A stretch of 41,275 nt of DNA. Source: Methylococcales bacterium (lineage in GTDB: Bacteria; Pseudomonadota; Gammaproteobacteria; Methylococcales; Methylomonadaceae). The translations under genes and the position numbers were made by a program. The notes below the pieces were generated by a model, which did no database searches, was not told the origin of the DNA, and was given only the letters and a program-made list of their open reading frames with translations. This document shows, in pieces, positions 7,853 through 38,688 of this stretch; within the stretch, counting starts at the first letter, position 1; every line of letters starts with the position of its first letter. The stretch is from NCBI GenBank assembly GCA_028714175.1, contig JAQTMV010000014.1, forward strand, positions 1 to 41,275, written 5' to 3'.

Positions 7853-10128
7853 AATGAGCTATATTTTTCGCGTAAGCGCTGACGAATAATTTCGGCCAGC
7901 GTATTAAAAACAAACGTAAACATGAACAACACCAGAGCGGCCAGAAACAATACCCGGTAGTGTGTACTGTCCACTTCAGATTCAGGCATTTCCACGGCTA
8001 TATTGGCAGCAAGCGTACGCAGGCCCTGAAAAACGCTTATATCCATCACCGGCGTATTCCCTGTCGCCATTAACACAATCATGGTTTCGCCCACTGCGCG
8101 GCCCAGACCAATCATCACGGCAGAAAAAATCCCCGGACTGGCTGTTAATAACACCACCTCCATCATGGTTTGCCAAGGTGTTGCGCCTAATGCCAGAGAA
8201 CCCACCGTTAAATGCTTGGGTACGCTGAAAATAGCATCTTCAGCAATTGAAAAAATAGTCGGAATCACCGCGAAGCCCATTGCTATACCCACTACCAGCG
8301 CATTGCGTTGATCATAGCCGATGCCCAATTCGGTCTTAAACCAATCGCGTAAGGTGCCGTGAAATAAAAAGCTTTCCAATGGCACGCTCACGGCAAAAGC
8401 AAACCAGCCGCCAAGCAAAATTACCGGTATTAATATAGCGGCTTCCCAGCCATCGGGTATGTTCTGCTGTATAGTTGCCGGTAAATACTGCCAGGCATAG
8501 GCAAACAGCATAACAGCCAACGGCACAATCATCAGCAATGCAAATAGCCCCGCCAAATACTCTTCAATAAACGGCGCCAGCCATAATCCGGCGAGGAAGC
8601 CCAAAACAACCGTAGGCAGCGCTCCCATTAATTCAATGGCTGGTTTAACAATCTGCCGCATTCTTGATGTCATAAAATAGGCGGTATAAATAGCCCCCAT
8701 CAGGGCCAAAGGCATAGCCACCAGCATGGCATAAAAGGCCGCCTTCAGAGTACCAAAAACCAAGGGTGTTAAACTGTATTTGGGCTCAAAGTCGCTATTC
8801 GCCGAGGACGACTGCCAGATATAATCCGGCTTGGGATAACTTTCATACCAAACTTCCCGCCAAAGCGAGCCTAAAGATACCTCCGGGTGCTCATTATCCA
8901 CCTTCCAGAAGTTTATTTTGTCGTCATCAGACTGTACTAACAGGGCATTGGCCCGGGGCGATATTGCCGCGGCTTCCGGGCGTGAATTACTGACACGCTC
9001 TTTAATCATTTCTCTTTCAGAAGTCGAATGATAAATGCCCAGTATGCCGCTGGCATCGAGCGTCATGAAGCCTTTACGCCGTTGTTCCGGATTTATCGAG
9101 ATGACCGCTTTATCCGAAACTTTAAAGACCCTGATTTTTTGCATGGCAAAGCGATTTAACTTGTCCCTAACCTTACTCCACTGGGAGACCAAACCGCTGG
9201 AATCGCCAATCATCAACGAAAGATCACCATTTAAAAATGCGACACTGGTAATCTTGTGTTCTGCCTCAACTATATTTAGTTCCTGGATAAGAACAGGCGC
9301 GCTTTTATCGCTAATATCAAACACTCCCAAGCGCCCGCCATTACCCAGTAGGTAAAGATTATGCTCATCCTTATCTATTAAAATATCGGTAACGTCCGCG
9401 GCAGAATAGTCCAAAACCGAATCCGTACGGGTTATAGAGGCTTCATCAGCGAACAAGGATTTTTCTTTTTCAAAATGGCTTAAGCGAATTTTACCGGCGG
9501 ATTTTGCAACTATTGTACTTGCGTCATCGCCGATTTTAACGGCAATTTTTTCCAAAGCCGCACCCGACTCATCTATCACCAGAGGTTGCTCACCCAATGG
9601 GTACTTTAACGATGGCGTGATCAGGCGAACATTATTGGGATACGTTATTTTGTATTGATGTTTTACGATAACTGCCCGGCCGTCCGATAAGCCGTAAATC
9701 ACGGCACCTTCGTTGATAGGGCTACCCTGGGAAAAGCTCACTATTTGAGTACCTTCGGGTATTTTGATGGCTTCATTTAATATAGTTTTGCCAGTCGCCA
9801 CCGCAAAAAATATAATTTGCCCAGTGTCCGTAAATCGGGCAGCCACTTCATTTTGTTCTTCTATCTCCAGCAGCACTGTTTTACCCAACGCTGATTCCGG
9901 CACATTATATTGACTAACCGATTCAGCTGTTGCCGAGAGAAATAACGGGAAAACCACGTACAGCAAATAAAAGAAAATCAGTACGACAGCTATGATCACA
10001 CCAATACCGCCTGCAATCACACCATAGCGTGCTAATGAATCTTTGATGAGTCGCCAGCGCTGGTAATAGCCGCTGGCTGATTTTTCCATAACTGATGGTA
10101 TTTTATTGATTGGATTTGTTTCAGACAT
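7849..10128 (-). CDS. pstC: Phosphate ABC transporter permease PstC, long form
   Basis: The partner permease of PstA. One N-terminal membrane helix (GVIAGGIGVIIAVVLIFF) is followed by a large soluble domain of about 360 residues with beta-propeller-like strands (for example LSLMIGDSSGLVSQW), then the permease domain with MRQIVKPAIELMGALPTVVLGFLAG and the loop [17 protein letters not shown] chose the ATG at 10128 (MSETNP) because the longer frame, starting at 10239, would run through a minus-strand terminator hairpin at 10182-10212; the 5' bases TCCCCCC offer no clear ribosome site, so the exact start is uncertain. It is the second gene of the pst operon. Confidence 0.92.
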   Translation of the reverse strand: MSETNPINKIPSVMEKSASGYYQRWRLIKDSLARYGVIAGGIGVIIAVVLIFFYLLYVVFPLFLSATAESVSQYNVPESALGKTVLLEIEEQNEVAARFTDTGQIIFFAVATGKTILNEAIKIPEGTQIVSFSQGSPINEGAVIYGLSDGRAVIVKHQYKITYPNNVRLITPSLKYPLGEQPLVIDESGAALEKIAVKIGDDASTIVAKSAGKIRLSHFEKEKSLFADEASITRTDSVLDYSAADVTDILIDKDEHNLYLLGNGGRLGVFDISDKSAPVLIQELNIVEAEHKITSVAFLNGDLSLMIGDSSGLVSQWSKVRDKLNRFAMQKIRVFKVSDKAVISINPEQRRKGFMTLDASGILGIYHSTSEREMIKERVSNSRPEAAAISPRANALLVQSDDDKINFWKVDNEHPEVSLGSLWREVWYESYPKPDYIWQSSSANSDFEPKYSLTPLVFGTLKAAFYAMLVAMPLALMGAIYTAYFMTSRMRQIVKPAIELMGALPTVVLGFLAGLWLAPFIEEYLAGLFALLMIVPLAVMLFAYAWQYLPATIQQNIPDGWEAAILIPVILLGGWFAFAVSVPLESFLFHGTLRDWFKTELGIGYDQRNALVVGIAMGFAVIPTIFSIAEDAIFSVPKHLTVGSLALGATPWQTMMEVVLLTASPGIFSAVMIGLGRAVGETMIVLMATGNTPVMDISVFQGLRTLAANIAVEMPESEVDSTHYRVLFLAALVLFMFTFVFNTLAEIIRQRLREKYSSL

Positions 10129-10175
10129 GGGGGGGATTGTAAGGATGAAATGTGACAATGATATAACAAAAATCA

Positions 10176-10212
10176 AAAAAACGGCCGAGATTCGATAATC
10201 AAATCTCGGCCG
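10176..10212 (-). terminator. Hairpin with T tract between pstS and pstC (attenuator)
   Basis: CGGCCGAGATT and its exact complement form an 11-bp stem with a 9-base loop. Read on the minus strand it is followed by TTTTTTT, a typical intrinsic terminator. It lies downstream of pstS and upstream of pstC, so it should let pstS be made in excess of the permease genes by partial read-through. Confidence 0.8.
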
Positions 10213-10338
10213 CTGTTTTGTCTGCATTAACTTTCGCACATGTAAAGGGACATAAGCAGTTAATCCAGACCAACATCCCTATCTATGCAACCCTGCACAA
10301 CAGCTAAAGCCATTTTTAACAACTATCCCTTATAAAAC

Positions 10339-11328
10339 TTATTTAAGAGTTGTCAGTACTTTTTCAACTACTTTTGCAGGTAATGGAATATAGCCATCTT
10401 TTATTACAACTTGTTGGCCGGCTTTGGATAATACCATTTTCATAAATTCGTTTTCCAAGGGCGCTAACGGCAGATTAGGCTTTTTATTGACATAAATGTA
10501 CAAGTAACGTGTCAACGGATAAGCGCCTTTAATGGCATTTTCAGGTGTTGCTTCAACAAAAGGTTGTCCCGCTTTTTTTGCCAGAGGCACCATTTTTATA
10601 CCCGATGTGCTATAACCCATACCTGAATAGCCAATACCATTCTTTGATGAAGTAACCGATTGCACCACTGAGGCTGAACCCGGCTGCTCGTTCACGTTAC
10701 TTTTGAAATCACCTTTACATAAAGCGTTTTCTTTAAAATAACCGTAAGTGCCGGAAACCGAGTTTCGTCCGTACAACTGAATGCTTTTAGAACCCCAGGC
10801 GGCGACACCTGCTTCACCCCAGGTTTCAATATCAGTTTCGTAACCGCATTTGCGGGTAGACGAAAAAATCGCATCAACCTGCGGAATAGTCAGACCTTTA
10901 ATGGGGTTGTCCTTATTGACCAGCACAGCCAGCGCGTCAATAGCAACGGGGACTGCCGTAGGCTTGTAACCGTATTTATCTTCGAAAGCTTCCAGTTCGT
11001 CATCCTTCATCTCACGGCTCATAGGCCCAAGATTTGATGTACCTTCTGTTAACGCAGGGGGTGCAGTGGAAGAACCCGCTGCCTGAATCTGGATATTAAC
11101 ATTAGGATACTCGCGGTTAAATTCTTCAGCCCAGAGCGTCATCAAATTTGCCAGTGTGTCAGAACCCACACTGGACAAATTGCCAGAAATACCACTGGCT
11201 TTTTGATATTCAGGAATATCTGCATCAACTGTCTGTACCGCACCTGCAGTTCCGCTGACCAATGCCGCAGCAGTAAATCCCATCGCTGCTATCAGTAATT
11301 TTGTCTTAAAAGATAATTTCATCATCAA
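10339..11328 (-). CDS. pstS: Phosphate-binding periplasmic protein PstS
   Basis: Captures phosphate in the periplasm and delivers it to PstC/PstA. A signal peptide ([19 protein letters not shown], cleaved near TAGA) is followed by [19 protein letters not shown], the phosphate-contact loop [11 protein letters not shown], and [27 protein letters not shown] and [13 protein letters not shown] form the second half of the binding site. This is the Pseudomonas/methanotroph PstS type (329 residues) rather than the E. coli type. Three ATG/AAA-rich start codons occur together, and the first or third Met is the likely start. It leads the pst operon behind a Pho box at 11438-11455. Confidence 0.96.
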
Positions 11329-21760: not shown

Positions 21761-23932
21761 ATGACCATACAAAAAAAACAAACATTAATCGCTGCGCCTG
21801 AATCCCGGCGTTTTGATCTTACAGCACCCGAATGGTATCTCAATCGCGAATTAACCTGGCTGGAATTTAACAAACGGGTTTTATGGGAGGCCGAAGATGA
21901 GCGTACTCCATTATTGGAGCGGGTTAAGTTTATTGCCATTGTCAGCTCCAATCTGGATGAATTTTTTATGAAACGGATAGGTGGACTTAAACAACAGGTC
22001 GGTGCGGGGATCCGCGAATTAAGTATAGACGGGCGCAGTCCGCAGCAACAAATTACCGAATGTTATGCTGTTGTGCGTGAGCTTGAAGCCAAAAAACAAA
22101 GACTATTGATGCAAATTATTGACCTGCTTCTGCAACAGGATATTCGCATTTTACCTTATCTTGAGCTTTCTAAAGATCAGCAACAAACAATGCGTGAACA
22201 CTATATTCAAAACATTTTTCCTCTGGTAACGCCACAGGCGATTGATCCGGCGCATCCTTTCCCCTTTATCTCCAATCTGTCACTGAATTTACTGACCGGT
22301 GTTTGTTGTGCTGAAACCGATGATATGACTCTGGTGCGCATTAAAGTACCGGTCAGTTCCAGCGTGCCACGCTTTATCCAGGTAGGTGGTGGGCAACTTT
22401 ATGTGGCTCTGGGGGATTTGATTGCGAATAATCTTGATTTGCTCTTTCCCGGCATGAAGATAGCGTTCTGCGATCTGTTTCGGGTGACGCGTAATGCTAT
22501 AACTGAACAGGATGAAGAGCAGGCCGATGACCTCTTGCAAATGATCGAATCAGAATTGCGCGAGCGCAAATTTGCTCCGGTCGTTCGTCTCGAAGTTGCC
22601 GCAACGATGGGAAAATTGCAAAGCGGTAGGCTGGCGGCAGAACTGGGACTTAATGAAGAGCAGGATGTTTTTGTAGTTGATCAACGCATGGCAATGACGG
22701 ATCTGTTTCAGATTGCCGGTATTGCCAGACCGGATTTGCTCGATCCGCCTCACCATCCCTGTGATCACCCAAAACTGGCTGGGGTTCCGAATATTTTCCA
22801 CGCGATTCGCGAACAAGGTTCTATTTTGTTGCATCACCCCTATGAATCATTTGTCACCACCGTCGAGCGGTTTGTTAAAGAAGCCAGCCGGGACCCGAAT
22901 GTGCAAGCGATTAAAATGACGCTATATCGCACCTCGGCGGGTACCAAGATAGTTCAGTACCTGATTGATGCAGCGTTAAATGGGAAACAGGTTGCGGTCG
23001 TCGTTGAGTTGAAAGCCCGTTTTGATGAATCAGCCAATATTAAATGGGCACATCGCATGGAGAGCGCCGGCATTCATGTGACTTACGGTGTGGTTGGATT
23101 AAAAACCCACAGCAAAGTGATTTACGTCGTCAGGCAGGATTATAACGGCTTGCGCCGTTATGCGCATATCGGCACGGGTAATTATCATGCCGGAACTGCG
23201 CGGCTTTATACCGATCTGGGCATTCTGACTTGCGATAAAAAAATAGGTGAAGAATTAACCGAATTGTTCAATTATCTGACTACAGGCCTTGTACCCAAAC
23301 GTAACTATCAAAATTTACTCATTGCGCCCAATAAGTTGAAGTCAAAACTCCTGGAAAAAATCGACCGTGAAATCAGTCAGCATACTGCAAATTCGCCCGG
23401 TTTAATCCAGTTTAAAATGAATGCCCTGGAAGATGTAGACATTACTGCAGCACTTTATCGAGCGGCTCAGGCTGGGGTAAAGATTGATCTGATTATTCGT
23501 GATACCTGCCGGTTAAGGCCAGGCATTGCCGGATTATCTGATAACGTGCGCGTTATCAGTATCGTTGGACGTTTTTTAGAACATTCCCGCATATTCTATT
23601 TTCAAAATGGTGGGGAAGAAGAGTACTTTATTGGCTCGGCCGATTGTATGAAACGTAATCTGGAGAGTCGTGTAGAAGTAGTCACCCCGGTGCGAAAACC
23701 CGAACTAAAGGCAGTGTTGCGGCAACTATTAAATGTACAACTGACCAACCAGCGCAGTGTTTGGGAAATGCAGGCTGACGGTCAATATATTCAGCTGCAG
23801 CCTAAAGATAAACAGTTGGGAGTTCAGGAAACGTTGATTAAATTAGCAAATAATCGTTTTGATGAAGCAAAAACCAGCAAATCCCATATAAAAGCTAAAA
23901 AGAAAGCTGGCGTTAACAGAAATACCGACTGA
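21761..23932 (+). CDS. ppk1: Polyphosphate kinase 1
   Basis: Makes polyphosphate from ATP and degrades it in reverse. The 723-residue protein has the four PPK1 domains: an N-terminal helical domain (YLNRELTWLEFNKRVLWEAED), a head domain, and two phospholipase-D-like catalytic domains. The first catalytic His is in YAHIGTGNYHAGTARLYTD (near residue 467), and the second in RFLEHSRIFYFQNGGEEEYF (near residue 605). VQAIKMTLYRTSAGTKIV and the ESRVEVVTPV strand are also typical. It sits between the pyruvate-kinase-like gene and glycogen phosphorylase, all plus-strand. No clear Pho box precedes it in the 95-base gap. Confidence 0.97.
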   Translation: MTIQKKQTLIAAPESRRFDLTAPEWYLNRELTWLEFNKRVLWEAEDERTPLLERVKFIAIVSSNLDEFFMKRIGGLKQQVGAGIRELSIDGRSPQQQITECYAVVRELEAKKQRLLMQIIDLLLQQDIRILPYLELSKDQQQTMREHYIQNIFPLVTPQAIDPAHPFPFISNLSLNLLTGVCCAETDDMTLVRIKVPVSSSVPRFIQVGGGQLYVALGDLIANNLDLLFPGMKIAFCDLFRVTRNAITEQDEEQADDLLQMIESELRERKFAPVVRLEVAATMGKLQSGRLAAELGLNEEQDVFVVDQRMAMTDLFQIAGIARPDLLDPPHHPCDHPKLAGVPNIFHAIREQGSILLHHPYESFVTTVERFVKEASRDPNVQAIKMTLYRTSAGTKIVQYLIDAALNGKQVAVVVELKARFDESANIKWAHRMESAGIHVTYGVVGLKTHSKVIYVVRQDYNGLRRYAHIGTGNYHAGTARLYTDLGILTCDKKIGEELTELFNYLTTGLVPKRNYQNLLIAPNKLKSKLLEKIDREISQHTANSPGLIQFKMNALEDVDITAALYRAAQAGVKIDLIIRDTCRLRPGIAGLSDNVRVISIVGRFLEHSRIFYFQNGGEEEYFIGSADCMKRNLESRVEVVTPVRKPELKAVLRQLLNVQLTNQRSVWEMQADGQYIQLQPKDKQLGVQETLIKLANNRFDEAKTSKSHIKAKKKAGVNRNTD

Positions 23933-28425: not shown

Positions 28426-28518
28426 TTTTTTTGGTCCTGGGGATAAAAGCTTTGAAAAGTTTCCACCCCAGATAGTTCAATGTCCGGCTTTTTACCGGAA
28501 AATCCTGGAGTGTTAATT

Positions 28519-28872
28519 ATGAAAGTTATTGCCGACAAAGCAGTTGAAGAAGCGACGGTTGAAAACGTAACAGAACCTGTTAAGAAATCCAAAATCGCGT
28601 TAATTGGAATCAAAAAAGGAGCCACTGCGGCCAGGCAAGCCGTTACTAAAATTGCTTCTGCACCATCGAGATTGTTTGATAGTGGGTTATATGGTGCCTG
28701 TTACGGAATATCCTATGGGGCCGTTTTTACTTCTTTAGCGATCGTAAAAATGTTGCCTGCCAATAGTCTCGTGACGAAAGGTTTCCATGATGGAGCCAAG
28801 GTCGCGCGTAAAGACTTTAAAACTCGTCAGGAAAAGCACTTAGTGACCAAAGACTCAAAAGTGGTCAACTAA
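28519..28872 (+). CDS. Small basic protein with a central hydrophobic segment
   Basis: A 117-residue hypothetical protein. I chose the ATG at 28519, with GGAG 9 bases upstream; an earlier frame start at 28480 lacks a site. The N-terminus is Lys/Ala-rich and helical (KKSKIALIGIKKGATAARQAVTK), the middle holds SGLYGACYGISYGAVFTSLA followed by IVKMLP, a probable membrane or membrane-surface helix, and the C-terminus is charged (KVARKDFKTRQEKHLVTKD). I do not recognise the family. Its shape resembles small granule- or membrane-coating proteins. It is monocistronic, with a strong promoter, and sits between phoD and the GTPase pair. Confidence 0.7.
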   Translation: MKVIADKAVEEATVENVTEPVKKSKIALIGIKKGATAARQAVTKIASAPSRLFDSGLYGACYGISYGAVFTSLAIVKMLPANSLVTKGFHDGAKVARKDFKTRQEKHLVTKDSKVVN

Positions 28873-28906: not shown

Positions 28907-30502
28907 TTAGCAGGCGGGGTTGGTCAGCGGACTTTCCCCGCCTTGCACTGCATCTCCAGACAAAGCAACAGACGATTTATCAAAAGTGCTGAAGCCTTTT
29001 TTGGCAATAAATTGCCCGGCTCGCTTGGATTGTTTCCAAAGTCTGCGCCAATGATCTTCCTTATGATATTCCTTAAGACAACGAAGATAACGCACCTGCT
29101 TGGCTTGTTCGAGTTGCTGAAAAATGGCGGGAATCAAGCCTTCCTCAACATTGTATTCAAAGCCCGGATTTAAATTGACCGGCGCAATTTGATCGATATT
29201 TAAGCCCAATTCTTTCGTTAGCGTATCCATCATCAATCTAATTGCCTGGGCTTTTGCCCCGCAAGGATTCATGACATCATAGGGCGGATGCCACTCCCTG
29301 AGCGGACGCAACTGATCGATATGCGTCAATGCCACAACGACGGGCGGCAAACTGTTCTTGCCCTTAGCTGCAAAACAATTCTGAATGGCCTGCAGCATTT
29401 TTTTATCCGGTTCACGCGCGGCATTGGTTGCGGAAATCGCCAGAAGAATAATGTCACTGCGGATAATTTCTTCCGAAGCTTTTGCAAACGAACGTTGGCA
29501 GTCATCGCTTCCATAACCTTCGCAATCCAGTATAATCGCAGTTTCCAATCCCGGGCGTTCCAGCAGATAAGAAGTAATGCCTTCTGTTGTAGGAGTTGCA
29601 TTGGTTTCGGCTTTTTTTGCTCCGAACAGGGCATTGATGAGGCTGGATTTACCGGCATTAGTCTGGCCTACTACCATTATACGGAAGGGTTCCGTGGACA
29701 CTGCCGATTCCCTGTGTTTAATTTTGTCCAGTTCCTGTTGAGATGGTCGTGTCGCTTTGGCGAATATATCATTGTCCAGAACCAGGCTGCCACTGTAAAG
29801 CTCGATCGCGTAATAGCCTATTTTCTTGATATAGGCATCGATAAGCCAGCGCTTGAGGTCATCAGTGGAATGAGCTAACAGGCTATCGGTAGTCAGTATT
29901 TTGAGTTCGCGAATCATTGCCGACACCGGATCCAGTCCGGCCGATACAATACGAAACAGGCGATAGAGCTCACGCCCGCGATTAACTAACTTGTGACCGC
30001 GGGCAATATCGTTCAGCGAGAAAATATGACTGCCCGGTACGTTTTCCGAAAGATTGACGCGTAACTCTTGCGCCAGCATCTCTATGACTTTGAGCAGATA
30101 GGGTATCTTGATTTCCAACAGAGCGTCTTTACGTTGTGGATAATACTGCTCCGCTACAGACTGCATCACTTCAAGCAAAGTCTGCATATAAAATTGCGAA
30201 GAGGCCAAATCCGGATTGCTGTTTCTGCGTAATACGGAAATTTGCTCGATTTGTTTGTAAGCCAGTTTGTTTTGAGTTGTTTTTTCGACCGTTGTCGAAA
30301 TATCAAGCAGTTCCAGTTGCAAATTCAACCGGTTCAAGCGTTGATTAACGAGCCACCACCCCGCGGCTAAGATTGTTGACGCCGCCAGCCATAAAATCAG
30401 CATTTGATGCAGCCATAACCAGTAAGCTCCTGCTGCCAAAGGGATACTGAACGGGGCAATTATGACTGAAAAATGCATGTGCCAGCGGGTTTTCATTTTC
30501 AT
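28907..30502 (-). CDS. Membrane-anchored GTPase
   Basis: A 531-residue protein. Two membrane helices lie near the N-terminus (HFSVIIAPFSIPLAAGAYWLWL and LILWLAASTILAAGWWLV); a long helical region of about 200 residues follows. The G domain starts near residue 275 with G1 VVGQTNAGKSSLINALFGA, G2 region NATPTTEGITSY, G3 ILDCEGYGSDD and G4 ALTHIDQL. The tail is basic. G4 is THID rather than NKxD, as in several Era-like or septin-like GTPases. It overlaps the preceding GTPase gene by 4 bases (ATGA), so the two are translationally coupled and probably act as a pair. Function unknown; membrane remodelling or organisation is a fair guess, not shown. Confidence 0.85.
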   Translation of the reverse strand: MKMKTRWHMHFSVIIAPFSIPLAAGAYWLWLHQMLILWLAASTILAAGWWLVNQRLNRLNLQLELLDISTTVEKTTQNKLAYKQIEQISVLRRNSNPDLASSQFYMQTLLEVMQSVAEQYYPQRKDALLEIKIPYLLKVIEMLAQELRVNLSENVPGSHIFSLNDIARGHKLVNRGRELYRLFRIVSAGLDPVSAMIRELKILTTDSLLAHSTDDLKRWLIDAYIKKIGYYAIELYSGSLVLDNDIFAKATRPSQQELDKIKHRESAVSTEPFRIMVVGQTNAGKSSLINALFGAKKAETNATPTTEGITSYLLERPGLETAIILDCEGYGSDDCQRSFAKASEEIIRSDIILLAISATNAAREPDKKMLQAIQNCFAAKGKNSLPPVVVALTHIDQLRPLREWHPPYDVMNPCGAKAQAIRLMMDTLTKELGLNIDQIAPVNLNPGFEYNVEEGLIPAIFQQLEQAKQVRYLRCLKEYHKEDHWRRLWKQSKRAGQFIAKKGFSTFDKSSVALSGDAVQGGESPLTNPAC

Positions 30503-31695
30503 TGCAACACCTTATGTTGGATCTCACTCACGTAATCCTTCAGGATGGCCCGGCCCAGTTCAAACTGTTCCGCATAAACAGTTCGGAATAATTCACTGGA
30601 TAACTCTTTTCCGCTGCGTAAATTTTGAAAGTAAACCGTTAACGTCTTGCCTAATGCATAAGTTGTTGCTGCGGTCAGCACGGATGATACGGCCAAACCG
30701 TAGACGGGAATCAGTTTGATTAATTCGCGGCGGCCGATATTGGTCAGTAGAGTAAGACCTAGTGCGCTGCTGATTTCGGCCCAACTTTTTCGATCCAGCT
30801 TGTAATTATAAATTGACGCAATCGTCTGAAACATTTTGGCCTGAACCAGAGTTACGACAGGGATATCAACAAAAGGAATAGGAACGGCGCCTGCCGCACC
30901 TGAAATAAGCGCGTAGGCAACGATATGCGGATGCGCCGCTTTACTATATACATCATGCAGTTCCTTGCGTATTTCTTTCATTTCATGAAGCATCAAGGCA
31001 ACACCGTGCGGCAGTGCTGTTTCCAGGCTTCGCCAAAACGCTTCCAAGCCATAATTGACCGGTTGGTAACCATCTTCAGGCAGTGTTAGATCGACCGGGA
31101 CAAAATAAGCATCGATACCCTTAAATAGCGTTCTTTGTTCAAGCAAGGATCGGCGCAGGTTTTCAGGAATAATTTTAGTCCAGTCCTCATCTTCAAACGG
31201 ATAAGGACTAAAGTGTTCGGAGGCGGGGTCGGTATATCCCTCATGCAATGCAGTTTGCACAACAATAACCGGCCAGTCGGGTTTAGCTTTATGAATCGAT
31301 CTGACAGCCTCCATAACGGCGTGTTGGGAATGATCCATGGCTTTCATTACGACGATCAGCAAGTGAGCCTGTTCCCGGAAAGCTTCAATATCGCCATTCG
31401 GTTCATAATCCACTTCGCCCAGTCCCCGCGTATCCAGGAACCGCATAATGCAATCCCGGGAATCAGGAAAATCATAAATGAATGCAGATCTGGTGCAGGA
31501 GTGCATGCCGTTTCCTATCTGGGCGCGGCTGTCTCCGGTCAGAGCCCTGATGATCGATGTTTTTCCCGATTGAGTCTTCCCCAACAGCCAAAAAACCGGA
31601 GTGGGCATAGACGACTTTATGGTTTCAAGGCGTTCATTGATTTCCTCATCATCAAGACGAGGCGTGAAGACGGTCGAGTAAATTTTTTTCCACAT
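30499..31695 (-). CDS. GTPase with a C-terminal DUF697-like membrane domain
   Basis: A 398-residue protein. The G domain is at the N-terminus: G1 LLGKTQSGKTSIIRALTG (about residues 37-54), G3 FLDTRGLGE, and in place of NKxD the segment VVQTALHEGY. The C-terminal half has hydrophobic helices AYALISGAAGAVPIPFVDIP and LIPVYGLAVSSVLTAATTYAL, as in DUF697/YcjF-like domains, with many glycine and alanine residues. The ATG at 31695 has GAGG nine bases upstream; a TTG 18 bases earlier is less likely. It leads a two-gene unit with the membrane-anchored GTPase. Hydrolysis of nucleotide may be altered given the unusual G4. Confidence 0.85.
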   Translation of the reverse strand: MWKKIYSTVFTPRLDDEEINERLETIKSSMPTPVFWLLGKTQSGKTSIIRALTGDSRAQIGNGMHSCTRSAFIYDFPDSRDCIMRFLDTRGLGEVDYEPNGDIEAFREQAHLLIVVMKAMDHSQHAVMEAVRSIHKAKPDWPVIVVQTALHEGYTDPASEHFSPYPFEDEDWTKIIPENLRRSLLEQRTLFKGIDAYFVPVDLTLPEDGYQPVNYGLEAFWRSLETALPHGVALMLHEMKEIRKELHDVYSKAAHPHIVAYALISGAAGAVPIPFVDIPVVTLVQAKMFQTIASIYNYKLDRKSWAEISSALGLTLLTNIGRRELIKLIPVYGLAVSSVLTAATTYALGKTLTVYFQNLRSGKELSSELFRTVYAEQFELGRAILKDYVSEIQHKVLQ

Positions 31696-31831
31696 ATGCA
31701 AAGCCTCAAACAAGGCCGCAAAATTTTTATGATTTCATGGCTTAGGTGCAGAGTTTATTCTTTGCTTTCATCAGTCCGAAGCAAAATCCAGCAATGAATA
31801 AACCCTATCATGTCTTTAATCACTCGATGAT

Positions 31832-31924: not shown

Positions 31925-32188
31925 TCAACCGATATTTTGGTTAATATTCATAAGAGTTCTTACTTTCTGTTCCAGCTTCGCCCATGAAAGCAATAGTGGT
32001 TTACGTAAAATTTTGACAGTCAGCACATCTTCCTGAAGCAAATAGTGCGCCTCGATTCCGAGACCTTTAATCAACCCTTTTTCAGTATCGCCGGTAAATC
32101 GCAAGCCATGTTTTTCGGCTGTTTGTCTGGCTTTAATAATGAGTTCGTCCGGATGGTCGACGATCTTGACCTTAATAGATTTTTTCAT
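31925..32188 (-). CDS. Small protein resembling the PHA-granule regulatory family
   Basis: An 87-residue protein, MKKSIKVKIVDHPDELIIKA to the end. I chose the ATG at 32188, since the longer frame runs through the promoter region. The pattern of alternating strands, HGLRFTGDTEKGLIKGLGIE then HYLLQEDVLTVKILRKPLLL, resembles Pfam PHA_gran_rgn (polyhydroxyalkanoic acid system protein, PF09650), by eye only. It would be a small cytosolic alpha/beta protein. It is divergent from the DUF5132-like gene, with the Pho box in the shared region. If the assignment is right, it adds a granule-associated function to this cluster. Confidence 0.6.
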   Translation of the reverse strand: MKKSIKVKIVDHPDELIIKARQTAEKHGLRFTGDTEKGLIKGLGIEAHYLLQEDVLTVKILRKPLLLSWAKLEQKVRTLMNINQNIG

Positions 32189-32210
32189 TTCAACTACTTT
32201 TTGATTGAAA

Positions 32211-32244
32211 TTGTCATATAACTGTAACAATGTGATGTTAAAAA
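32211..32244 (+). promoter_or_regulatory. Pho box upstream of the DUF5132-HMA2 pair
   Basis: TTGTCATATAACTGTAAC matches the PhoB box in 16 of 18 positions (mismatches at 1 and 16). TAAAAA at 32239-32244 is a fair -10 at exactly 10 bases. The start of the DUF5132-like gene is 226 bases beyond the box, so a long 5' leader is implied. Confidence 0.75.
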
Positions 32245-32453
32245 ATAATATATAGTGACATGTTGCGATAAATGTAATAAATGCCTCAACCCGATCTTTA
32301 GGTATTGAAGTGCTCAAATCATCCGTTAAGAGCTTTTTACTGAATCGCTACATCGGAGGTGGCGACTTGCGATTTTGATGATAATCAAAAAAATTATTAT
32401 CAAGCAACAACTGAACAGTACGCCCGCTATGCAACTCCTGGGAAAAGCTGAAT

Positions 32454-32768
32454 ATGATTAAAATAAATGATTTTTTTAAGAGCGGCACCCCTTTGGGAAT
32501 CGCCATTGGCGTTGGCGCCACTGTCTTGGCTACAGCAGTTATTCCAGTACTGCCGGCCCTCGCTAAAGCCGCCCGTCCTGCTGCCCGCGCTGCTATCAAA
32601 TCAGGCATATTGCTCGCGGAAAAAGGGCGGGAGTTCATGGCCGAAGCGAGCGAAGAGCTTGAAGACATTCTTGCCGAGGCCAGGTCCGATCTGCTGCGGG
32701 AAAACAGCATGAGTCAGGCAGAATCTTCAGAGCATGCTGAGGCTTCCACTGATCAAGATGACTTATGA
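32454..32768 (+). CDS. DUF5132-like small membrane protein
   Basis: A 104-residue protein with one Gly/Ala-rich hydrophobic helix near the N-terminus (PLGIAIGVGATVLATAVIPV), then an amphipathic basic helix (ALAKAARPAARAAIKSGILL), then an acidic tail rich in Glu and Asp. This is the layout of DUF5132 proteins, which occur next to HMA2-domain proteins and P-type ATPases in many Proteobacteria. Its stop overlaps the next start (ATGA). It is behind a strong Pho box. No function is known for the family; a membrane scaffold or surface protein is a guess. Confidence 0.75.
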   Translation: MIKINDFFKSGTPLGIAIGVGATVLATAVIPVLPALAKAARPAARAAIKSGILLAEKGREFMAEASEELEDILAEARSDLLRENSMSQAESSEHAEASTDQDDL

Positions 32769-33307
32769 CAGGAAACGAAAGTTATCCTTCAGCATACATT
32801 AAACATCAATTGCCGGGTCGCGTAAGGCTGAAGATTCCGCAAAAAAAAGGCGACTTTCGTTACTTTGACCGTATTGCAGAATTATTCTCCGATTGCCCGG
32901 GTATCACCCAACTACAGCTTAACCCACCTGCGGCCAGTATATTGATTTGCCATGAGATAGAGATCCAATTCTTGAATATTGCCGAATTTGCTCAAACAAA
33001 CGGCCTGTTTACGATCATTGAACAACCGGCGGAAGAGGAGACTTTTTCGATTCCCTATCTGCCTATACCAAAACTCACCTCAACAGGCCTCAGTCGAATT
33101 GACGAGTCGCTGACGGATTTCAGCCGAGGGCTGGTTGATGGGCGCTCCCTATTGTTCCTGGCATTAATCGGGCTGGCCGTTCGTCAGATGACCAAGGGCG
33201 CTATTATGGGACCCGCATCCACCTTGCTTTGGTATGCTTTTAGTGTATTGAAAGAAGAAAATGAAAAAACCTTAGATCCGGACAGTCATCCCGACTTTGA
33301 CTCCTAG
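32765..33307 (+). CDS. HMA2-domain membrane protein without CxxC
   Basis: A 180-residue protein. The N-terminal 90 residues resemble a heavy-metal-associated type 2 domain: IKHQLPGRVRLKIPQKKGDF, GITQLQLNPPAASILICHEI. The metal-binding CxxC of classical HMA domains is absent. The C-terminal half has SLLFLALIGLAVRQMTKGAI and STLLWYAFSVL, one or two membrane helices. The neighbouring P-type ATPase begins with the same PGRxRxKxP module, so the two proteins may interact. Translation is coupled to the DUF5132-like gene. It is convergent with the metK-like gene. Confidence 0.75.
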   Translation: MTGNESYPSAYIKHQLPGRVRLKIPQKKGDFRYFDRIAELFSDCPGITQLQLNPPAASILICHEIEIQFLNIAEFAQTNGLFTIIEQPAEEETFSIPYLPIPKLTSTGLSRIDESLTDFSRGLVDGRSLLFLALIGLAVRQMTKGAIMGPASTLLWYAFSVLKEENEKTLDPDSHPDFDS

Positions 33308-33332
33308 TACGTTGCATAGCCATTGATGGCTT

Positions 33333-34523
33333 TTATTCGGCAAGCAATTCGGCCTTGTCAGTCTTTTCCCAAGGCAAAGGTGAACCATTAGCGCCGAAAT
33401 GCCCGTTGACGGGCAATTTCTGATAAAAGATACCGTCATTTTCTTGCGTAAGCTCGCGTAATTTCAAATCCCTGACAATGGCTCCCAGCCGGAAATCAAA
33501 ATGCCTGAGCAGTCGCCTGCGAATCTCATGATCCTCAATTATCCCGGTTCCTTTTGTCGTCAAATAAACACTGACCGGACCGGGAAAACCGATACTATAA
33601 CTCAATTGAACCTCGCATTGTTCGGCGAGGCCTGCTGCCACGATATTTTTGGCGGCATAGCGGGCTGCATAGGCGCCGACTCTGTCGATACGCGAGGGGC
33701 CCTTGCCGCTCAAAGCCGATCCGCAATGCCTGGCAAAACTTCCGTAAGTATCGCTGTCGGTTTTTCGGCCGGTCATGCCTGAGTGGGCAGAAGGCCCGCT
33801 CCGCACATAAGGACCGTTGGGATTAATGGTAATGCGGGTCAAATTGTCCGGCTTGATAGATGCATGTCGAAAAACCGGGTTGATGACATTATGCCGGAGA
33901 TCTTCTTCGATTTGCGCAAAGGCAGGCAGCGAATCGGGATCGTTACAGCCGACGATGAGGGTAATGCTGTCGATCCGGCTTGGCGTATCATTCACAAATT
34001 CAACTCCGACCTGAGAAGTGCAATCCGGAGAAAAATAATCGATACCTGATTGCCGCCTGGTTTTGGATAATTGCCGGGCCAATTGATTAGCCAACGTGAT
34101 AGGAAGCGGCATTAATTCCGGGGTATGCCGGCAAGCGTAACCGAAGACCGTCGTTTGATGGGAGACGGTGATCCGGTCTATTTCTTCATCATCAACGTTT
34201 GAAAAATTGATTTCCCGGGGGGTCTTTGATTGCTCTATCTGACTGGTCACAACGGTGCATTCGGCGGCATTGAAGTTCTTGGGCCGGTAGCCGACGCCTT
34301 TGATGATGGCGCGCGCTATTTCAGGGATATCGACAATCGCTTCGCTGGCAAACCGCGTGGCAAGAAATATTACATTCTTTGATAGCGCACACTCCGCCGT
34401 TATTCTGGACGTGGGGTCTTGCCGGAGGAAGGCGTCGACAATAGCATCGCTGACGGTATCGCAGAGCCGGTCGGGGTGCCCTTCGGTGACGGATTGAGAG
34501 GTAAAAACAAAGTCAGTGATCAT
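33333..34523 (-). CDS. SAM-synthetase (MetK) paralogue with altered active-site acids
   Basis: A 396-residue protein homologous along its whole length to S-adenosylmethionine synthetase. The N-terminal motif SVTEGHPDRLCDTVSDAIVD, the MTGRKTDSDTYG motif and the AYAARYAAKNIVAAGLAE segment are kept. Aligned by eye to E. coli MetK, GAGDQGLMFGYA becomes TVSHQTTVFGYA (D118 to His), the GGPMGDCGLTGRK segment becomes SGPSAHSGMTGRK (D238 to His), and GGGAFSGKD becomes CGSALSGKG (D271 to Gly). All three are acids that bind substrate or metal. It starts inside the ATPase 3' end, with AGGA before the ATG at 34523, an 11-base overlap. It probably does not serve as the housekeeping SAM synthetase. Confidence 0.85.
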   Translation of the reverse strand: MITDFVFTSQSVTEGHPDRLCDTVSDAIVDAFLRQDPTSRITAECALSKNVIFLATRFASEAIVDIPEIARAIIKGVGYRPKNFNAAECTVVTSQIEQSKTPREINFSNVDDEEIDRITVSHQTTVFGYACRHTPELMPLPITLANQLARQLSKTRRQSGIDYFSPDCTSQVGVEFVNDTPSRIDSITLIVGCNDPDSLPAFAQIEEDLRHNVINPVFRHASIKPDNLTRITINPNGPYVRSGPSAHSGMTGRKTDSDTYGSFARHCGSALSGKGPSRIDRVGAYAARYAAKNIVAAGLAEQCEVQLSYSIGFPGPVSVYLTTKGTGIIEDHEIRRRLLRHFDFRLGAIVRDLKLRELTQENDGIFYQKLPVNGHFGANGSPLPWEKTDKAELLAE

Positions 34524-37500
34524 TTTCATTATCCTGATTAAAGGTATTTTTATTGATCCCTTTTATGGCTTCATTGGCAATAAACGGCAATCCTGCGCCG
34601 GCCAGAATGGCAATCATATCGAAAACGCCTAGAGGACTCAGCCTTAGCAGCCTGCGCAATGGCGGCAATGTCACTGCCAGCACCTGCATTAATGCTGACA
34701 AACCGACGGCGGTATCGAGATAGCGATTGACGGGGCGATTCTCCAAATTAAAAATAGAGGTATGCTCCGACCGGGATCGATAGGCATGGAGAAACTGAGC
34801 GATTGTCAGCGACATGAAAGCATTGGTGCTGGCATTGGGTCCGGGGCCGTAGCGCAGAAGGCTGTACCCGTATACTCCTAAAGTTCCGGCCGAAATGATA
34901 CCTGACTCCCGGATCAGTTTAGCATAATCGCTGCGACTCACAATGGCGGCATTCGGATCACGCGGCGGTCGTTTGAGCACATCAACCTCCGGCGGATCCA
35001 TTGCCAAAGCCAGAGCGGGAAAGATATCCGTAATTAAATTGATCCACAATAGCTGCATCGGATTGAGAATTTCGGGCCCGCCCAAAGCGGCACTGACCAG
35101 CATCACTTCGATTTCGCTGAGATTGGTCGACAGCAGAAAGTGCAGGCTTTTACGAATATTGTCATAAATAGCCCGGCCTTCGCGTATCGCAGTCACCATG
35201 GTTTTCAAGTCGTCGTCTTCCAAAATGACATCGGCTACCGAACGCGCTGCATCGGTACCTTTTTCGCCCAGTGTGACGCCGATATTGGCAGCTTTAAGCG
35301 CGGGGCTATCGTTGATTCCGTCACCGGTCATCGCGACAACTTTTCCGCTCCGCTGCAAGGCTTGCACAATCAGCAGCTTGTGCGCCGGACTGACGCGGGA
35401 AAAAATCGTCGTACGACCCACCAACCCCGCGAGGACGGAAGGATCCAGTTTATCCAGATGTCCGGAGTCGATAATTTCCAGCGGCTTACCTTCAGCGCCA
35501 TTCAGGCCCAGCCTTTTCCCAACGGACAAAGCCGTCGAGCTTTGATCGCCGGTAATCATAACCGTTTCAATGCCGGCATCATGGAACTGGGCCATGAGTT
35601 CTGCCATGCCCGGGCGGATCACATCTTCCATGCCGACCAATCCCAGCCAAATGAGTCCTTGCTGTTTATACCCGGTTATCTCCCCGGTGATGCAATAAGC
35701 CACGCCCAGCACGCGCAAAGCATCGGCGCCAAGCCTTTCGTTCCAGGTTAAAATTGCTTTGCGCCGATCCTCGGACAACTCTTCCAGGCGTCCATCGATG
35801 CTGCATCTCCGGCAAAGTGCGAGAACCTCGGAAGGGCTGCCTTTAACGGCGGTAAAAAATTGCCCATCTTCCAAAGTATGAACAGTAACCATATAGGGCC
35901 GATCTTCGGCGCGGTAATCCACTTTTACCGCGGGACGATGCGCTCTTAAAAAATGGACATCTTCGCCGGCATTAATGGCGATCTGGAGCAGTGCGTTCTC
36001 CGTAGGCGATCCTTGCAAGAAGCAGGCGCCCATTTCAGTAGGCATCGATTCATTACAAAGCACCAGCACTTCCATCATGCGCCGCAACGTTTCATCCGTC
36101 CGGTAAAGGTCGACTTTGGCTTCGCGATGATAAAAGCCTCCCTCCTTGACTTTAATGCCGGTTTGCAACGTTTGCAGCGCCACCACACTCATTTGATTTA
36201 ACGTCAGCGTTCCGGTTTTATCAAGACAAATGACCTGTACCGACCCCAGATTTTCAACAGCAGGCAACTGGCGAATCAGCACTTTCCGGCGCTTCATCTC
36301 CTCGATGCCCAGCGCAAGCGTTGTGGTCGCGACTGTCGGCAGTCCTTCCGGAACCGCAGCGACCGCCAGGGAAATAGATGACATCAACATTTCCAGTAAC
36401 GGGCGGCCGCGTAAAAGCCCTACCACGAACACCAGCACGCAGATACCCGAACTGAGCAAGGCCAGCTGCATGCCCATGTCATCGATTTGCATTTGCATCG
36501 GTGTTACCGGCGTTTTTGTTCCCCCCACCAAATCCTGAATTTTGCCGATTTCGGTATGCCGTCCGGTGGCGACGGCTATCGCCCGGCCGTTGCCGCCGGT
36601 CACCGTCGTCCCCATATAAACCATATTTTGCCGATCGCCCAGAGCGGTGTCCTCTTCGCCCAGGTATTGGTGGTTTTTGCTGACCGGAAGACTCTCGCCG
36701 GTTAAAGGCGATTCGTCTATCGTTAAGCGATGGCTGTCCAATAAACGGGCATCAGCCGCAACATAAGAGCCCGGAGCCAGAACCAGGAGGTCGCCAAACG
36801 CTATCTCCGGCATTGAAATTTCCTGCTTTTTCCCGCCTCGGATCACTATTGCTGTTTCGGGAGTCAACTGCCCCAGGGCATTAATGGTTTTTTCCGCCGA
36901 TTTTTCGGTCACGAAACCAATAACCGAATTGATCACAACAACGGTTACTATAACGGCCGTATCTGCGACGCCTCCCGTAGCCAATGAAACAACTGCCGCT
37001 ACGCCGAGCATCGCCACCGGAGCGGAAACAAATTGCCCTAAAAACATTTGCAAAGATGATCGACCGGCATGCTCGGATAATAGGTTTAGCCCGTACTTCG
37101 CCAGCTTTTTAGCCGCAGCCTCTTGAGTCAGGCCCTCTTCGCTTCCCTGGACGAAATTGATGACCTGGGTGCCGGAAAGCATGTGCCAGAGCTGTTGCGG
37201 CTGAGCTTGATAGCCTGTGACTTCAGGTCTCCGCCGCGCTTTTTTAGGTTTTCGCTCTATGACCTTTTTTGGCGGACGATCGATACTTTCGGTATGACGA
37301 ATAATGGAACAGCCCAATTGCGCTTCGAGCAATTGGGCAATACTGGCCGGCATTTCCCGGGAATCACGAGGCGCTATATATTCAACCAGGAGATTACCCG
37401 TTAACGTATTGGCGCGCACGAGTCTGATTTCATCAAGAACCGTTAATCTGGATTCCAGGTCCGCACGCAGGCGATCGTTCCGATACAGACTGGGCACCTT

Positions 37501-37584
37501 AATGCGTGTCCGTCCCGGAACCCTGTCATTAACGATCAGCAGATAATCTTGCGGTTTTTTATCTTGGGTAACGGAGTCCGTCAT
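34513..37584 (-). CDS. P2-type calcium-transporting ATPase with an N-terminal HMA2-like module
   Basis: A 1023-residue pump. Residues 1 to about 100 form the HMA2-like module (VNDRVPGRTRIKVPSLYRND) and a basic linker. Then come the A domain (LTGESLP, near 297), the phosphorylation motif CLDKTGTLT (near 456) and the hinge MTGDGINDSPALKAANIGV (near 755). Calcium ligands of the SERCA family are kept: PEGLP in M4, STNLSEIE in M5 (Asn and Glu), and NLITD in M6 (Asn, Thr, Asp). M8 has Gln in place of the acidic ligand, as in Pmr1-type Ca/Mn pumps, so one ion site is expected. Ca2+ or Mn2+ export or sequestration is the likely role. It lies between caxA and the metK-like gene in one transcription unit. 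Confidence 0.92.
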   Translation of the reverse strand: MTDSVTQDKKPQDYLLIVNDRVPGRTRIKVPSLYRNDRLRADLESRLTVLDEIRLVRANTLTGNLLVEYIAPRDSREMPASIAQLLEAQLGCSIIRHTESIDRPPKKVIERKPKKARRRPEVTGYQAQPQQLWHMLSGTQVINFVQGSEEGLTQEAAAKKLAKYGLNLLSEHAGRSSLQMFLGQFVSAPVAMLGVAAVVSLATGGVADTAVIVTVVVINSVIGFVTEKSAEKTINALGQLTPETAIVIRGGKKQEISMPEIAFGDLLVLAPGSYVAADARLLDSHRLTIDESPLTGESLPVSKNHQYLGEEDTALGDRQNMVYMGTTVTGGNGRAIAVATGRHTEIGKIQDLVGGTKTPVTPMQMQIDDMGMQLALLSSGICVLVFVVGLLRGRPLLEMLMSSISLAVAAVPEGLPTVATTTLALGIEEMKRRKVLIRQLPAVENLGSVQVICLDKTGTLTLNQMSVVALQTLQTGIKVKEGGFYHREAKVDLYRTDETLRRMMEVLVLCNESMPTEMGACFLQGSPTENALLQIAINAGEDVHFLRAHRPAVKVDYRAEDRPYMVTVHTLEDGQFFTAVKGSPSEVLALCRRCSIDGRLEELSEDRRKAILTWNERLGADALRVLGVAYCITGEITGYKQQGLIWLGLVGMEDVIRPGMAELMAQFHDAGIETVMITGDQSSTALSVGKRLGLNGAEGKPLEIIDSGHLDKLDPSVLAGLVGRTTIFSRVSPAHKLLIVQALQRSGKVVAMTGDGINDSPALKAANIGVTLGEKGTDAARSVADVILEDDDLKTMVTAIREGRAIYDNIRKSLHFLLSTNLSEIEVMLVSAALGGPEILNPMQLLWINLITDIFPALALAMDPPEVDVLKRPPRDPNAAIVSRSDYAKLIRESGIISAGTLGVYGYSLLRYGPGPNASTNAFMSLTIAQFLHAYRSRSEHTSIFNLENRPVNRYLDTAVGLSALMQVLAVTLPPLRRLLRLSPLGVFDMIAILAGAGLPFIANEAIKGINKNTFNQDNENDH

Positions 37585-37632
37585 CGTTGTTATTCAATAA
37601 TATACTTTATAAAAACCATCTCATGACTTTAA

Positions 37633-38688
37633 TCAGACGGTTTGTCCGTTGATATACATGAAGTACGAATTTATCACAAGGAGTAATATCAACACCCAGC
37701 TGATCACGCCTACCATTTTCAAAATGCGTTGCTCAGGACGATAAAACAAACCAATGATGGCAAAACCGGTCATGATTAATGATGTTACTACCGAAACCGC
37801 ATGGACAGGCGAGATCTTCGAAAAAATCGGCCCATGTTTGTAGACTATATCTTCGACCGCAAGAATTGCGTTATTCATCAGATTACTTCCGAAAATACCG
37901 CCGATAGCCATATCCAGGGCATGGATTTTAACCGCCGTTACTGCAACGGTCATTTCCGGAACGGTAGTAATAAAAGCAACCAGCAAAGTGCCAACAAAAC
38001 TTTCTTGCCAGTGCATGATCACGGCAATTTGCTTGGCAACCATCGGCAAAAAAATACCTGTGACAATAACGACTGAAGCGGCTGCTATGTAGCGTATGAT
38101 AACGGCGTTCAGCGAAAGGTTCGGAAAGGCATCGGGCTCTTGTTCCGTGTATAACTTGATCTGACGGCTTTCGTAGCTAAAAACCGTATAAACGGCGATC
38201 AAATACAAAACTAATATGACCGGGCTTAGTATCCCGATGTGACCAAACGCAAAAGCTTTCCCGTTCAACGCCATATTCATCCCCAAGCCGTTAAAACCGA
38301 TCATTACAATTCCGAATGAGGCGGAAAGGATATGTCCCTGACTGGCAGAAGTATAAATGGATCCTCCTCGATACAACAAGTCCAGAATCACGATAATGGC
38401 CAAATTAAAAATGCAGGCGCCGAAAATAGCGCCAACCGCAAGATCGGGCGCGTCAGCCAAAGTTACGGCACTGATTCCGCTGGTTAATTCCGGAACGGAA
38501 GTGACTATACCTATCAATAAAAAGCCTATCCAGTTGCCGCCTAATCCGGTTTTATCGGCTATGGCGTCACCATAAACGGTTAATTTGACCCCCGCATAGC
38601 CCACCAGGAAGAAACATGCGAAGAATTGTGACCAAACGTAGATTGGATCGTTGAAGAGTTGCGGCCAAATGGTGATTATATAGTTAAT
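37633..38688 (-). CDS. Calcium/cation antiporter (CaCA family, YrbG/CaxA-like)
   Basis: A membrane exchanger with the two inverted alpha repeats of the CaCA family: IVTSVPELTSGISAVTLADA with GAIFGACIFNL, and AFITTVPEMTVAVTAVKIHA with GGIFGSNLMNN. About ten membrane helices are visible. The only canonical start is a GTG at 38604, which has no ribosome site and cuts into helix 1 (FFACFFLVGYAGVKLTVYGD). The frame is open to a stop at 38701-38703, and directly after it is AAGGAG, followed at ideal spacing by ATT (38688). I therefore propose initiation at ATT or the neighbouring ATC, giving about 352 residues with helix 1 complete. It leads a caxA-ATPase-metK-like unit. Confidence 0.85.
   Translation of the reverse strand: MNYIITIWPQLFNDPIYVWSQFFACFFLVGYAGVKLTVYGDAIADKTGLGGNWIGFLLIGIVTSVPELTSGISAVTLADAPDLAVGAIFGACIFNLAIIVILDLLYRGGSIYTSASQGHILSASFGIVMIGFNGLGMNMALNGKAFAFGHIGILSPVILVLYLIAVYTVFSYESRQIKLYTEQEPDAFPNLSLNAVIIRYIAAASVVIVTGIFLPMVAKQIAVIMHWQESFVGTLLVAFITTVPEMTVAVTAVKIHALDMAIGGIFGSNLMNNAILAVEDIVYKHGPIFSKISPVHAVSVVTSLIMTGFAIIGLFYRPEQRILKMVGVISWVLILLLVINSYFMYINGQTV

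Follow-up and report, generated by a model that had tools for sequence, protein, structure and literature searches.

Two adjoining genes in a Methylococcales genome encode different P-loop GTPases with predicted membrane anchors, and they raise the question of whether their products work as one machine and, if so, on what that machine acts. The genes lie on the minus strand of the window, by which we mean the whole 41,275-nucleotide stretch of contig JAQTMV010000014.1 that was analysed; a check of its open reading frames (ORFs) found both intact, and they are referred to here as GTPB and GTPA (B and A). An ATGA overlap couples them, as the first-pass annotation had claimed and as the junction, TTGCAATGAAAATG on the minus strand, confirms, with the GTPB stop TGA at 30501-30499 and the GTPA start ATG at 30502-30500. 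The start of GTPB at 31695, taken over from that annotation, was accepted because relatives start at the same MWKK position, and the TTG start at 31713 given by the ORF tool is probably not the true one. The features of the locus are as follows.

30499..31695, minus strand: GTPB, 398 aa, with an N-terminal P-loop GTPase domain and a C-terminal hydrophobic DUF697 domain.
31558..31581, minus strand: G1 P-loop of GTPB, GKTQSGKT, from the alignment of relatives.
31423..31434, minus strand: G3 of GTPB, DTRG, from the alignment of relatives.
31240..31257, minus strand: QTALHE at the G4 position of GTPB (residues 147-152), identified by the family signature QTxLHE.
30571..30978, minus strand: DUF697 domain of GTPB, from Pfam and hydropathy, with hydrophobic segments at residues 258-286 and 325-343.
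30499..30502, minus strand: ATGA stop/start overlap from GTPB to GTPA, from the junction sequence.
28907..30502, minus strand: GTPA, 531 aa, with an N-terminal hydrophobic hairpin, a helical middle and a C-terminal P-loop GTPase domain.
30329..30496, minus strand: N-terminal hydrophobic hairpin of GTPA (residues 3-58), from hydropathy and the AlphaFold2 model.
29645..29668, minus strand: G1 P-loop of GTPA, GQTNAGKS, from the alignment of relatives.
29516..29527, minus strand: G3 of GTPA, DCEG, from the alignment of relatives.
29315..29326, minus strand: G4 of GTPA, THID (residues 393-396), followed by the conserved LRPLREWHPPY, from the alignment of relatives.

When 84,980 species genomes were scanned, the best 80 loci came for the most part from Methylococcales and also from Planctomycetota, Desulfobulbus- and Desulfopila-type bacteria, Thiococcus and Beggiatoa. 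Both genes are present in 74 of these loci, and in 73 of them B immediately precedes A on the same strand; the spacing is -4 nt in 17/74 and between -4 and +14 nt in most others. Purifying selection acts on A and on B, with dN/dS values of 0.09-0.22 in comparisons with six relatives. The single exception to the gene order, L055, has a different A upstream of B and no A downstream; at 8232-11197 of that locus, a GTPA 51% identical to that of the window precedes a GTPB 84% identical to the window's, an arrangement that may reflect partner replacement, rearrangement or an assembly error.

In surveys of Gammaproteobacteria (n=274), Pseudomonadota (n=299) and Planctomycetota (n=199), the genomes with B were the same as those with A (7=7, 9=9 and 6=6, respectively; these are simple counts that ignore shared ancestry, and the first two samples overlap partly). 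No full-length A or B occurred alone in the three surveys, with one partial match on each side. As a B-only genome, G425 was rejected, its DUF697 GTPase having a canonical NKxD motif and matching the profile over DUF697 alone; G529 was rejected as an A-only genome, as it holds merely a partial A-like match. Three Planctomycetota genomes (G368, G481 and G538) keep both genes although these are unlinked, being megabases apart or on different contigs, and in G258 one other gene separates A from B. Among plasmid records, A occurs in five Vibrio replicons, all megaplasmids, and B in exactly these five; about 12-13 kb separate the two genes (about 12 kb in the annotated V. parahaemolyticus replicon). 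Pairwise distances of A and B correlate with r = 0.96, and well-supported conflicts between their trees are few (6/39). The identical genome sets, the retention of both genes when unlinked and the correlated distances together support well, at the level of sequence, the conclusion that A and B depend on each other, and this is the strongest result of the analysis.

The genome that contains the window encodes a second complete B-A pair (G000:C88:17207-19879, L031), whose B is 45% identical to that of the window. This second pair is of the type found in most Methylococcaceae, and the pair of the window falls in a separate clade with Methylobacter-type relatives. GTPA fragments of about 100-140 aa at G000:C67:1630-1917 and G344:C1:2647716-2648138, the latter with stops, are remnants of further copies.

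Methylococcales carry intracytoplasmic membranes. The best 80 genome matches are mostly from this order, and a role of the pair in the formation or upkeep of methanotroph intracytoplasmic membranes would be in line with that, but we regard it as very unlikely. A full-length copy is present in about 22/61 near relatives, so the pair is not required for these membranes, and genomes of the Desulfobulbus and Desulfopila types, of Vibrio and of Planctomycetota carry it too. As a general role, this one does not fit the distribution.

Both proteins contain an MMR_HSR1 GTPase domain scoring above the Pfam gathering score (55.2 bits in GTPA and 33.1 bits in GTPB), and GTPB contains DUF697 (PF05128) at 37.3 bits against a gathering score of 27.7. 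Hydropathy profiles show a strong N-terminal hairpin in A and a hydrophobic stretch within the DUF697 of B, and relatives are alike in this respect. The description of two different membrane-linked GTPases given by the first-pass annotation was therefore upheld, with membrane linkage predicted from hydrophobic regions at opposite ends of the two proteins. Pairing of oppositely anchored GTPases as an obligate arrangement is well supported by the co-occurrence of the genes and these predicted anchors. The best PDB sequence matches of A's G domain include Era, Der and HflX, as might be seen if A and B were ribosome-associated housekeeping GTPases encoded side by side by chance. Such a reading is extremely improbable, given the patchy occurrence, the obligate pairing, the predicted membrane anchors and a Der score of 38 bits against a cut-off of >300.

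The first-pass annotation had placed THID and QTALHE where NKxD is expected, and called both motifs unusual. In the AlphaFold2 models of A and B, both segments end the beta-strand that precedes G4, and on this ground they occupy the NKxD position, with the exact register of B against NKxD read from strand position rather than from a structural superposition. Across 69 sequences, the G1 motif GxxxxGK[ST], the G2 threonine and the G3 motif DxxG are kept in both proteins, and canonical G4 ([NT]KxD), which confers guanine specificity, is absent from both. In the 69 aligned members of the A family the motif is [TSN][HQ]xD, usually with His or Gln; Lys is thus replaced, Asp is kept in 68/69, and a conserved LRPxREWxPPY follows. 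The 69 aligned members of the B family carry QTxLHE, with the Gln, Leu and His each in 69/69. Histidine occupies the Asp position of G4 in the main B clade, T-x-L-H-D is retained in Planctomycetota B proteins, and the most distant, Vibrio-type B proteins have lost the motif entirely. A reading of these motifs as those of a decayed or pseudo-GTPase was ruled out by their conservation in 69 relatives and by the low dN/dS.

The nearest known G domain among those tested, for A as well as B, is that of YfjP, a putative GTP-binding protein of E. coli prophage CP4-57 (hhalign probability 97.5 and E 6e-12 for A; probability 95.6 for B). The alignment covers the G domain alone and leaves the C-terminal part of YfjP unmatched. 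In YfjP, SQSD aligns with the THID of A, which makes the motif of A a subfamily trait: YfjP-like GTPases share with A a homologous G domain with an [ST][QH]xD G4. It follows that only the absent Asp of B, replaced by His, is truly unusual, and the earlier description holds for B and not for A. The non-NKxD G4 lowers the claim to guanine specificity, not that to the fold, since relatives such as YfjP also do without the Lys. With its base-specifying Asp kept, A is probably an ordinary GTPase, whereas B of the main clade may bind a nucleotide with a different base or show no base selectivity; YchF is a precedent for a G4 change that goes along with a change of specificity. We infer an altered base specificity for B from its sequence. 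YfjP also differs from A and B in its length of 287 aa and in the lack of a DUF697 GTPase partner in its locus.

The AlphaFold2 model of GTPB has a mean pLDDT of 79.5, with a good G domain, and that of GTPA a mean of 75.4, its structural matches being G domains alone. Foldseek ranks immunity-related GTPases (IRGs) first for GTPB, followed by LeoA, the Campylobacter dynamin pair (5owv) and mitofusin, a set that makes the membrane shaping or tethering proposed by the first-pass annotation plausible. VIA-align matched GTPB to YsxC over 156 residues (Z 15.6, 2.6 A) and to mini-mitofusin over 276 residues (Z 15.1, 8.1 A). Whole-chain structural matches of B have a TM of about 0.36 and large rmsd, so the firm structural match is limited to the G domain of B. 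As regards the neck and trunk helical bundles with membrane paddle of bacterial dynamin-like proteins, helical regions are predicted in A and B, and whole-chain similarity is weak.

Several known systems were compared with the pair. The IRGs Irga6 and GM4951 give B its best Foldseek match (E 2e-8) and its best PDB sequence match, but they are animal proteins whose whole-chain likeness to B is weak (TM about 0.36), and the IRG fold is not known to include a DUF697-type membrane domain. E. coli YcjX-YcjF likewise combines a P-loop protein with a DUF697 membrane protein and has a 4-nt gene overlap. Homology to YcjX (DUF463) was ruled out at <=2.4 bits against A and B, in the P-loop alone, and YcjF matches B weakly in a short DUF697 stretch, leaving the G domain unmatched. 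Operon pairs account for most bacterial dynamin-like proteins, and that of Campylobacter tethers membranes (PMC6104087). Cj-DLP1/2 of Campylobacter are, like A and B, heterotypic GTPases encoded by adjacent genes, and act on membranes (PMC6104087). A and B are shorter than such dynamin-like pairs, differ from them in their G4 motifs and in being anchored at opposite ends, and lack a full Dynamin_N domain: GTPA matches Dynamin_N at residues 275-310 alone (36/168 positions; 29.6 bits, barely above the cut-off), and GTPB has no Pfam match to it up to E 0.1. Neither therefore has the full domain by which bacterial dynamin-like proteins are recognised, and for this reason we do not class A and B as a dynamin-like pair; at best, they would work like one.

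The surroundings of the pair differ widely between genomes. In the window, the pair stands between phosphate, polyphosphate-type and glycogen genes and a cation-transport cluster. The former (4629-26509) comprise phosphate-uptake-like genes, a polyphosphate-kinase-like protein (21761-23932, recognised by eye) and a glycogen-phosphorylase-like protein, and are probably where the first-pass annotation found its idea of a link to polyphosphate granules. The latter (32454-38604) comprises genes for a DUF5132 protein, an HMA_2 protein, a methionine adenosyltransferase, a P2-type cation ATPase with an N-terminal HMA_2 domain and a Na/Ca exchanger, with the methionine adenosyltransferase and ATPase genes overlapping by 17 nt; it is present as a block in L053 and L057. 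Two small proteins without a Pfam match, 31925-32317 (minus strand) and 28480-28872 (plus strand), flank the pair and are kept in several close relatives (L051, L053, L054, L058 and L060).

Besides A and B, no neighbour cluster exceeds 8/80 loci, and no phosphate or polyphosphate gene of the window recurs as a neighbour among the best 80. The granule link is not supported: the phosphate, glycogen and cation genes of the window are not neighbours elsewhere, with the sole exception of the cation-transport genes, which are partly common to three close Methylobacter-type relatives (L053, L057 and L058). That partial sharing, together with a P2-type ATPase upstream of B in L108 (31 nt) and L127 (1.6 kb), is what might be expected if the pair were an accessory to the adjoining cation or metal transport genes (DUF5132, HMA_2, P2-type ATPase, Na/Ca exchanger) or to polyphosphate metabolism. 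Most of the 74 loci have no such genes in their flanks, so that context counts against this role for the family as a whole, and we judge it highly unlikely; a polyphosphate or metal context was rejected as an explanation because it is not conserved. The pair is indeed common far from the context of the window, as the first-pass annotation had said would speak against its reading if a known role came with it. No such role was found: the literature searched, which was open-access only, held no earlier account of the pair or its role. The DUF697, YcjX/YcjF and DUF5132 literature assigned it no role, and a search for a ferrosome (fez) link yielded nothing relevant.

The commonest extra neighbour cluster is a Dynamin_N protein, and Dynamin_N, with 5 of the 104 flanking proteins, is the most frequent Pfam family beside the pair. 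In four loci (L110, L119, L121 and L122), B and A are followed by two dynamin-like proteins with a protein of about 300 aa between them; the same two-dynamin cassette lies upstream of the pair in L113 (and L116), and one dynamin-like gene adjoins it in L115, at a contig edge, and L118. The A+B tree places these loci in three separate clades, and they differ in gene order, a further point that makes membrane shaping or tethering plausible. Most of 31 genomes examined have one to a few dynamin-like genes, and one has about ten; with so few per genome, adjacency to the pair by chance is unlikely, on counts that ignore phylogeny. In most loci, the pair adjoins no dynamin gene. The protein of about 300 aa in the cassette has no Pfam match, and loci with the cassette sometimes also lie beside NERD-helicase and WYL-regulator genes.

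Such neighbours bear on an anti-phage or stress defence module, in which the pair, after the manner of Leo-type dynamin or GIMAP-like systems, would sense damage at the membrane and act as an immune GTPase. The dynamin-like, NERD-helicase and WYL-regulator genes near the pair in some loci, the weak matches of A and B to PADLOC LeoA and LeoBC, the patchy distribution, and the location of E. coli YfjP in a prophage near rnlAB and abpAB are all compatible with defence. The Leo-type matches, however, span the G domain alone (A 254-364 and B 24-149, against models of 559-601 positions) and fall short of full length; PADLOC matches look no richer among direct neighbours than >5.5 kb away, in a coarse count over the top 25 families; no B homologue is present in 50,697 phage records; and housekeeping genes flank many loci. 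We consider a defence function unlikely.

The reading we prefer, at a probability of about 0.5, is that GTPB and GTPA are inner-membrane GTPases that act as an obligate heterotypic pair to remodel or tether membranes. Judged from sequence, A and B very probably work as one machine, and by analogy this machine most likely acts on membranes. In the proposed mechanism, two obligate subunits, both Era-like P-loop GTPases, would be anchored from opposite ends: A would insert into the membrane by a transmembrane hairpin at its N terminus, which a helical stalk would connect to the C-terminal G domain, and B by the C-terminal DUF697 domain behind its N-terminal G domain. Their cytosolic G domains would meet in a nucleotide-dependent heterodimer that may bridge, cluster or bend the membrane, as heterotypic dynamin-like pairs do. 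The proposal of tethering or shaping draws on the analogy with dynamin-like pairs (PMC6104087), the predicted anchors and the association with dynamin-like genes, and in some hosts A and B may act together with true dynamin-like proteins. The split G4 chemistry would also allow a division of labour between the partners. A bolder version, quite unlikely in our estimation, is a distinct, uncharacterised membrane-remodelling machine, an obligate heterodimer in which B, owing to its invariant His in place of the base-specifying Asp, would use ATP or would no longer select a base. A would use GTP, and together they would form a two-nucleotide switch at the membrane that works with dynamin-like proteins.

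Mitofusin-like and bacterial dynamin-like tethering rests on paired membrane GTPases, and A and B would add a kind of pair that is anchored from opposite ends, has split G4 chemistry, is present in at least two phyla and is kept even when its genes separate. The pair raises the questions of whether the pairing of unlike partners is a general design among bacterial membrane GTPases, and whether base specificity may be switched in one partner alone of a GTPase family.
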